Source of the DNA: Bordetella parapertussis
Lineage (GTDB): Bacteria > Pseudomonadota > Gammaproteobacteria > Burkholderiales > SG8-41
NCBI GenBank assembly: GCA_945901405.1
Contig: CAMDLH010000036.1
Coordinates: 1-40,934, forward strand
Direction of reading: 5' to 3'
Length of the DNA stretch: 40,934 nucleotides
Shown here: positions 7,801 through 37,603 of the stretch, one piece after another
How positions within the stretch are numbered: the stretch's first letter is position 1
Layout: each line of letters opens with the position of its first letter
Notes under the pieces: model-generated
Told to the model about the DNA's origin: nothing
Database searches by the model: none
What the model saw: the letters and a program-made list of their open reading frames with translations, nothing else
Made by a program: the position numbers and the translations under genes

Positions 7801-8048
7801 CGCGTGCGGCGTCCAAAGCGCGCGCGCAACGCGGCCTTCACGTTTCCGGACACGTCGGAACCATCGCCCGCGTCACCGCCGATGAACGGATGGCGGCCTT
7901 GGCTCGTGCCGTCCGCCTCGGCGGACGACGAACGCAACAACTCCTCAAGCGCATGCTTCACGGCCTCGCTCTTGGTGAGCCGGCGCTTGACGCAATACTC
8001 GGCGAGTTCTTGTTCCACGCGATCGGGCAGGCGAACGGTGAGCGTCAT
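7797..8048 (-). CDS. vapB: ribbon-helix-helix antitoxin of the VapC pair
   Basis: An 83-aa protein. The first 40 residues (MTLTVRLPDRVEQELAEYC and the following helix KSEAVKHALEELL) are a ribbon-helix-helix DNA-binding domain of CopG/MetJ type. The C-terminal part is Gly/Ser-rich and flexible, as expected of the toxin-binding tail. It should neutralise the PIN toxin and repress its own promoter together with it. The palindrome at 8062-8092, 14 bp upstream of the ATG, is a suitable operator. An AGAGG site precedes the ATG at 8048. The VapB label is by partner; several antitoxin families share this fold. Confidence 0.82.
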   Translation of the reverse strand: MTLTVRLPDRVEQELAEYCVKRRLTKSEAVKHALEELLRSSSAEADGTSQGRHPFIGGDAGDGSDVSGNVKAALRARFGRRTR

Positions 8049-27627: not shown

Positions 27628-27837
27628 AGTGCCTCCTGTATGAGACATCGTTCAATATGTGACATTACAACTTCAGTTACGACTTCGCAATACTCGATGC
27701 CAGCCTCCCCAACAATAGGGTCAGACGCAATACATTCCAACTAATTGATTTTATTGCACTTTTTACAACCTCTCATTTACATTAGGCTCGCATGTCCTAC
27801 TGCGCTTCTGCGTTTTCCGTCCGCTTTCGGCGGACGC

Positions 27838-36497: not shown

Positions 36498-37106
36498 ATG
36501 CCCAACATCACCATGCTCGATATCGAGCAACTAAAGCTTACGCGCTTGAAACCGTACATCGAAAAATGTCTGGTCAACAAAGCGCCCGATCCCGGCTTTC
36601 ACGCGATGATGGGCCACAACATTGCGCTATGCGAAGCGATGTTCGTGGCGTGGGATACGGTGTTCAATAGCGGCACTGTCGATCACAAACTGAAAGAGAT
36701 TATCCGCGTGCAGCTTTCACGCATGGCCTCGTGCGTGTATTGAGGCAACGTCCGGTCCGCTTCGGCGAAGCGGCAGGGTTTGACCGAAAACGATATCGAC
36801 GAGGCAATTGCGAATTATCGGGAGAGCACGCGCTTCACCGCGGCGGAAAAAATCGCGCTGCGCTACAGCGAACTGATGTCGCTCGACTCTGACAAAATTG
36901 ACGCGGCGTTTCACGGCACGTTGCGCGAGCATTACACCGGGGAAGAAATCATCGAGCTGGGTGCGTTCATCGGTTTTAACATCGGCTATCACACGTTTTT
37001 TGGTTCGCTCAAGTTCTATCCGATGTTCTCGCCCGATGGGCGGTTGGTGAGCCAGGACGAATCCGCGCGCATTTATGGCGACGCGCCGGCGACGTTATCC
37101 ACGTGA
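36498..37106 (+). CDS. CMD/AhpD-family protein with an in-frame TGA at the second redox cysteine (candidate selenoprotein)
   Basis: If the TGA at 36741-36743 is read through, one continuous 202-residue CMD-family protein results. The first part ends in KEIIRVQLSRMASCVY, with Cys79. Next comes the TGA codon at residue 82, and then GNVRSASAKRQGLTENDID and a full C-terminal helical domain with no other stop. The cysteine pair C-x2-C of AhpD-type proteins therefore appears as C-V-Y-TGA, i.e. Cys-x2-Sec if selenocysteine is inserted. A hairpin at 36757-36773 lies 13 nt past the TGA. CxxU AhpD-like selenoproteins are known from metagenomes. Alternatives are a nonsense mutation or a sequencing error. 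The start at 36498 gives the best N-terminus. It is coupled to a paralogue at 37103. Confidence 0.65.
36750..36779 (+). promoter_or_regulatory. SECIS-like hairpin after the in-frame TGA
   Basis: CCGCTTC (36757-36763) pairs with GAAGCGG (36767-36773) around a GGC loop. A weaker lower stem forms from 36750-36753 with 36776-36779 across an internal loop. The apical loop begins 20 nt after the TGA and starts with G, within the usual limits for bacterial SECIS elements. It is also similar to a GTCCGC...GGAC hairpin repeat at 7911 and 27819, so chance or a repeat origin must be considered. Confidence 0.4.
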
Positions 37107-37603
37107 CCACGCCGGTTACCACTGACGATCCCGAATTGCAGGCACTAATCGCACGCTGCGAGGCGTTGGGCGTGCCGGATGCGGCATTCATACAAACGCT
37201 TGCGCGCGTGCCCGAATATGCAAAGGCGCTGTTGAAAGCGATGCTGGTGTCGCACACCGAGGGCAACGTCGATCATCGGCTGAAAGAGATCATCCGCGTG
37301 CGGTTGGCGCGCACGGCGGGTGATGGCTATTTCGCGGCGCTGCGCTCGAAGCAGGCGCCGGGCTTAAGCGAGGACACCATTGCCGCCGCGCAAGATGATG
37401 CCCGTTTCACCGCCGCCGAAAAATGGGCGCTCACCTACGCACGCGAGATGTACACTAACCCGGAGAGAGTGGACGCCGCTTTCTACGCGGAGGGCAAGCG
37501 CCACTACAGCGAGGCGCAAATCATGGAACTCGGCGCGTTCATCGCGTTTCACTACGGCATGCAGGCGTGGGCGCGCACGCTCAATTTGAGGAGTGACAAA
37601 TGA
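37103..37603 (+). CDS. CMD/AhpD-family paralogue without redox cysteines
   Basis: A 166-aa protein homologous to the gene before it: both have VDH(K/R)LKEIIRV, RSxxA/Q, GL(T/S)E, DDARFTAAEKWAL and MELGAFI(A/G)F. Where the partner has S-C-V-Y-TGA-G-N, this protein has G-D-G-Y-F-A-A, so both redox positions are replaced by Asp and Phe. It starts at GTG 37103, overlapping the partner stop as GTGA, and its own stop overlaps the receptor ATG as ATGA. All three genes should be made at matched levels. It may be the structural partner of a mixed oligomer with the preceding protein; that is inference. Confidence 0.85.
   Translation: MTTPVTTDDPELQALIARCEALGVPDAAFIQTLARVPEYAKALLKAMLVSHTEGNVDHRLKEIIRVRLARTAGDGYFAALRSKQAPGLSEDTIAAAQDDARFTAAEKWALTYAREMYTNPERVDAAFYAEGKRHYSEAQIMELGAFIAFHYGMQAWARTLNLRSDK

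Follow-up and report, generated by a model that had tools for sequence, protein, structure and literature searches.

The window analysed here, a stretch of 40,934 nucleotides from an assembly labelled Bordetella parapertussis (GCA_945901405.1, contig CAMDLH010000036.1; GTDB lineage Burkholderiales, SG8-41), contains a gene of the CMD/AhpD family with an in-frame TGA at its presumed active site. Our reading, to which we assign a probability of about 0.93, is that this UGA (36741-36743) is decoded as selenocysteine (Sec) to give a Cys79-Val-Tyr-Sec82 active site, with delivery of Sec by a selenocysteine insertion sequence (SECIS) element and SelB, in a thioredoxin-linked redox enzyme that would form a mixed oligomer with a Cys-less partner. 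The conserved UGA at CxxU, a hairpin with frozen codons, the Sec genes and an adjacent paralog are directly visible in the DNA, and insertion of Sec at residue 82 is strongly predicted. The coordinates of the features are collected in Table 1.

The earlier note had described the TGA as the only internal stop of a CMD/AhpD frame, placed at the second position of C-x-x-U, and re-reading of the frame confirmed this: with TGA translated as U, a single internal U was found, at residue 82 in the motif C79-V-Y-U82-G-N-V-R-S-A-S-A-K, and the terminal stop is a TGA as well. With Cys substituted for UGA, the protein scored 38.6 bits against the Pfam model CMD (PF02627), above the gathering cut-off of 23. 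Relatives were collected by scanning GTDB species genomes with a seed carrying Cys at residue 82, which yielded 50 loci, all from species-representative genomes whose titles mark them as metagenome-assembled and, for the most part, as Proteobacteria. One locus (L079) stops at residue 76, short of codon 82; the other 49, together with a second gene copy in L070, make 50 relatives that span the codon. TGA was found at codon 82 in all 50, and thus in 51/51 rows of the alignment A1 when the window is included; TGC or TGT, which had been named as a sign against Sec, was present in none of them. Codon 79 is TGC or TGT, hence Cys, in the 49 loci and in the second L070 copy. Since the seed favoured Cys, the uniform TGA is not an artefact of ascertainment, and since all 50 spanning relatives have it, the in-frame TGA does not stand there by chance. 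The second copy in L070 (L070:4531) is a full-length Sec gene behind the paralog, with TGA and an identical hairpin core.

A lone in-frame stop in one assembly would also be seen if the gene were a pseudogene with a nonsense mutation or if the sequence contained an error. This explanation is contradicted by the TGA at codon 82 in 49 loci of separate genome records and in the second copy, and it was rejected with next to no probability left to it. The coding sequence around the TGA speaks against it too. Nei-Gojobori-type proportions of nonsynonymous and synonymous changes (pN/pS) were calculated with our own script for 47 genes (the window and 46 loci; L073, L075 and L078, which are gapped or truncated, the too short L079 and the second L070 copy were excluded), and the median pN/pS over 1081 pairs was 0.258 upstream and 0.328 downstream of the TGA. 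The coding sequence is under purifying selection on both sides, and the flanks of the UGA, which the earlier note had called conserved, are so in all 50 spanning relatives. Disabling mutations were looked for as well: apart from the TGA, the frames of the 49 loci have no internal stop (L034, L075 and L078 leave their contig past the TGA), and one locus has an in-frame gap.

Directly behind the TGA lies a hairpin with the core CCGCTTC-GGC-GAAGCGG (36757-36773), whose stem begins 13 nt and whose loop begins 20 nt from the TGA, the same spacing as noted earlier. The available text of PMC1088965 describes the bacterial SECIS form as a stem-loop right behind the UGA with a small apical loop containing G, and the 7-bp stem with its GGC loop, in which the codons of the loop and upper stem are frozen, has this form. 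The earlier caveat that the hairpin resembles palindromes at 7911-7926 and 27819-27835 did not hold, as those are GTCCGC..GGCGGAC, a different hairpin; a search of the window for the 17-nt hairpin with at most 3 mismatches returned its own site on both strands only, where 0.63 matches were expected by chance. In the 47 genes, 31 residues are invariant and have at least four codons available. At 28 of these 31 at least two codons are used (0.96-2.40 bits), and the codon never varies only at Ala88 (GCT), Ser89 (TCG) and Ala90 (GCG); the two-codon residue Lys91 is likewise always AAG. Codons 88-91 make up the upper stem and the loop (A1 columns 19-30). Columns 18 and 32 of A1 form a pair that is never broken in the 50 distinct rows, with CG in 28 of them, UA in 13 and UG in the other 9; the pairs beneath the 7-bp stem are looser. 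In a test with 500 shuffles, the number of paired cells and the covariation score exceeded all shuffles, and the number of cells with two-sided change exceeded all but 1. The RNAalifold consensus is weak (-4.43 kcal/mol), and when 36700-36900 was compared with Rfam no family of SECIS type came up, only a sub-threshold match to an antisense sRNA (E 6).

The window's genome, with a size of 6.43 Mb, a completeness of 96.8% and a contamination of 6.8%, holds the machinery needed for Sec. SelA (530.5 bits), SelB (458.2 bits) and the selenocysteine tRNA (tRNA-Sec, 75.7 bits) were found above cut-off, all on contig C185, and SelD (421.6 bits), also over cut-off, on contig C72; a search for selA, selB, selC and selD, as had been proposed, thus found all four. 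SelD carries an in-frame TGA of its own (L010:1531-1533) at GGG-U-GCK, which we take to be the known Sec site of SelD, and therefore looks like a selenoprotein itself. SelB was detected in 8/8 sampled genomes of the same family, which argues against contamination as its source. In 41 of the 50 genomes that hold the loci, SelB was matched at E 1e-60 or better; of the other nine, G012, G018, G019, G026 and G027 have a tRNA-Sec over cut-off (69-76 bits), and SelA was found in G012 and G017 (both partial), G019 and G032. At least one gene of the Sec machinery is present in 48/50. Furthermore, selB lies within 3 kb of the gene in L040, L045, L066 and L074. A rough estimate (50 loci, 4-Mb genomes) puts the number expected by chance at about 0.1; not all four loci count as independent cases.

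Deposited proteins bear on the question of which amino acid is inserted. Of 120 listed relatives 43 were examined; a search with residues 50-110 gave 12 proteins, of which P0122-P0125 were left out. Since 29 of the 43 start past the UGA, automatic annotation hides the active site. Seven proteins that span position 82 have W there (P0002, P0003, P0004, P0005, P0007, P0009 and P0039), as would be seen if UGA were read as another amino acid, either Trp by an altered code or by near-cognate readthrough. In these protein records, as opposed to DNA, W at 82 would be expected from a gene call of TGA under translation table 4. The only other intact ortholog across the site has Cys: P0018, with CVFC, a protein of 139 residues from a 518-base contig. 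It is the one Cys form that the search for Cys at residue 82 in homologues brought up, and it provides a thin case of the expected Sec/Cys exchange. In addition, TGA terminates the gene itself and those of many relatives, for which reason a general code change was rejected, and the genome has Sec machinery including a SelD with its own TGA. Insertion of an amino acid other than Sec is, hence, considered very improbable. P0019, P0026 and P0109 are garbled at the site and P0029 has the partner-type DSYF. The Cys-x2-Sec interpretation of the earlier note is supported by the TGA kept in 50/50 spanning relatives, the Sec genes and the one Cys ortholog.

Several observations weigh against the Sec reading as a whole or against parts of it. 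In L073, 29 codons are missing in frame upstream of the TGA. The stem pairs 17-33 and 19-31 fail to form in 2 and 3 distinct rows, respectively, and only one stem pair shows two-sided change. For the count of pairs with such change (1), 493 of the 500 shuffles were at least as high, and for that of further pair types (4) all 500. The folding energy is ordinary compared with dinucleotide shuffles, with z-values of -0.45 (50 nt) and -1.00 (34 nt) for the window, and of -1.74, -2.40 and +0.67 for three relatives; therefore, the case for the hairpin rests on its conservation. None of the Sec genes searched for (SelB, tRNA-Sec, SelA) was found in G025 and G036. The tRNA-Sec model passed its cut-off of 47 in 5/14 control genomes, so that scores near 47 bits mean little; SelB was over cut-off in only 2/14. 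In a sample of 300 genomes of the order, six carry the ortholog, the window's genome among them, and SelB is present in 4/6 carriers versus 82/294 non-carriers, a weak contrast when taken alone. The two carriers without SelB are G059 and G101, to which L041 and L046 belong; both have other Sec genes, partly as fragments. No thioredoxin gene was seen beside the gene in the window or in 41 of the 50 loci, some of which are cut short; in the remaining 9/50 a thioredoxin-like gene is located directly upstream. Finally, the relay His of AhpD, four residues past the second Cys, is replaced by Arg86, which is invariant in alignment A2 (28 sequences), and the activity may therefore differ from that of AhpD.

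Selenoproteins of the CMD/AhpD type with CxxU are already known from metagenomes, as the earlier note had said: they were reported in 2005 from the Sargasso Sea (PMC1088965) and in 2008 as AhpD-like 1 and 2 of the Global Ocean Sampling (GOS) data (PMC2398784), and are tabulated in reviews of 2022 and 2026 (PMC9312934, PMC13188914). As far as the available text of these sources goes, the Sargasso and GOS proteins share with the gene described here the CMD/AhpD domain, the C-x-x-U motif and a SECIS hairpin behind the UGA. In the GOS data one AhpD-like 2 gene is a neighbour of a Prx-like 1 gene, and here a Prx-like UPYC frame follows in L045, L046 and L052. Going by the published description, as opposed to sequences, the family may be part of GOS AhpD-like 2, but for that group 207 Cys homologs are given and for the present family one Cys ortholog was found; a Cys-less partner is not mentioned in the available text of PMC1088965 and PMC2398784. 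No NCBIfam model reached its cut-off: the top model, NF053654 (GroundWater_YciW, YciW-related (seleno)protein), which stands for the same (seleno)protein class, gave 64.9 bits where 310 are required, so that the protein is not a member, and TIGR01926 (peroxidase-related) scored 33.1 against 81.8. The AhpD-like protein PA0269 of Pseudomonas aeruginosa (2o4d, 2ijc; also 7xw1) has the same fold, and the spacing of its proton relay (Glu, CxxC, Tyr), as far as described in PMC3141380, recurs here, with Glu 12 residues ahead of CxxU. Unlike PA0269, the protein has a predicted Sec for the second Cys, a longer N-terminal part and a paralog as partner. What appears new, set apart from the earlier tables by description and with the groundwater metagenome-assembled genome selenoprotein study cited by PMC13188914 outside the comparison, is a subfamily below all NCBIfam cut-offs with one Cys form, Arg for the relay His and a coupled Cys-less partner.

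The paralog without a Cys/Sec pair follows the gene in 45 of the 46 loci that have room for it, and among 45 relatives, with start codons picked by nearness, 18 show an overlap of the two genes by 1 or 4 nt. In 16 of the 43 deposited relatives both are fused in one polypeptide. The fused span of G373 was rejected as a genomic fusion, since its DNA holds two separate genes, at the same locus as L031; the fusion is therefore known from deposited proteins only. In fused proteins, P0006 and P0022 among them, the linkers contain motifs (RHPGASRDP, ARLPGESQYPD) that resemble translated intergenic repeats, and this may be how the fusion of the two genes came about.

From these features a Trx-linked (thioredoxin-linked) peroxidase or reductase function is inferred. 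SelB would bind the hairpin and bring Sec-tRNA to codon 82, and the Sec selenol would then reduce a hydroperoxide or a similar substrate; a selenenylsulfide would form between Sec and Cys79 and be reopened by thioredoxin. The partner, which has the same predicted fold, is likely to join the Sec subunit in a mixed oligomer, and the overlapping genes are probably translationally coupled. It is less likely, though conceivable, that Sec is inserted into a reductive dehalogenase or into a specialised reductase like the debrominase Bmp8 (6ohi, 6ohj) and not into a peroxidase-type reductase. Bmp8 is a Cys enzyme with CMYC in the alignment and resembles the protein in profile and fold; a literature search on Bmp8 returned no match. 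The exchange of His for Arg86 and the resemblance to Bmp8 leave room for reductive dehalogenation, and the protein would in that case be a Sec counterpart of Bmp8 with a fold unrelated to deiodinase. More speculatively, the gene pair may encode a selenium-gated selenoenzyme of two subunits, in which the Sec AhpD subunit has a pseudo-enzyme sister as its obligate partner in one mixed oligomer; the reaction would perhaps be reductive dehalogenation. Because the partner's start codon lies across the last bases of the Sec frame, the sister would be translated well only after decoding of UGA82 as Sec, and both subunits would be made in amounts governed by the selenium supply. With its Cys-less coupled sister the system lends itself to testing both the pairing of a selenoenzyme with a pseudo-enzyme and an operon output that depends on selenium. 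With so few Cys forms the family is easily missed by Cys-anchored screens; the Sargasso screen demanded at least two Cys homologs (PMC1088965, available text), and one Cys ortholog would fall short of that.

Table 1 Features of the predicted selenoprotein gene, its surroundings and further frames of the same type
Feature	Position	Strand	Remarks
CMD/AhpD-family selenoprotein gene, predicted	36498..37106	+	202 residues, predicted Sec is residue 82
Cys79 codon, first residue of the C-x-x-U pair	36732..36734	+	TGC in window; TGC/TGT in 49/49 loci
In-frame TGA, predicted Sec82	36741..36743	+	TGA in 51/51 rows of alignment A1, window included
Predicted SECIS stem-loop	36751..36778	+	core 7-bp stem 36757-36763 / 36767-36773, loop GGC 36764-36766
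Tandem paralog, AhpD fold, no Cys/Sec pair	37103..37603	+	Asp at Cys79 position, Phe at Sec82 position
GTGA overlap	37103..37106	+	predicted start codon of paralog over terminal stop of selenoprotein gene
Further CMD-type TGA frame	L025:1483-2055	+	
Further CMD-type TGA frames	L026 and L027:1405-2028	-	
Further CMD-type TGA frame	L028:1609-1992	-	

Other frames with an in-frame TGA were seen in the course of the analysis. Directly 3' of the gene pair, a Prx-like frame with TGA in WUPYC is present at L045:4370, L046:4322 and L052:4327, which is predicted to be a second selenoprotein of the cluster; in L045 it is followed by selB. In the window's genome, C-x-x-U with its U encoded by an in-frame TGA occurs in four further frames of CMD type (CGYU, CQYU, CKYU and CNYU). 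Those of L026 and L027 are without a clean fold and that of L028 has an additional TAG further on; the L025 and L028 frames give hairpins whose loop contains GGUC. Judged from these frames, the genome may encode a small set of CMD selenoproteins.
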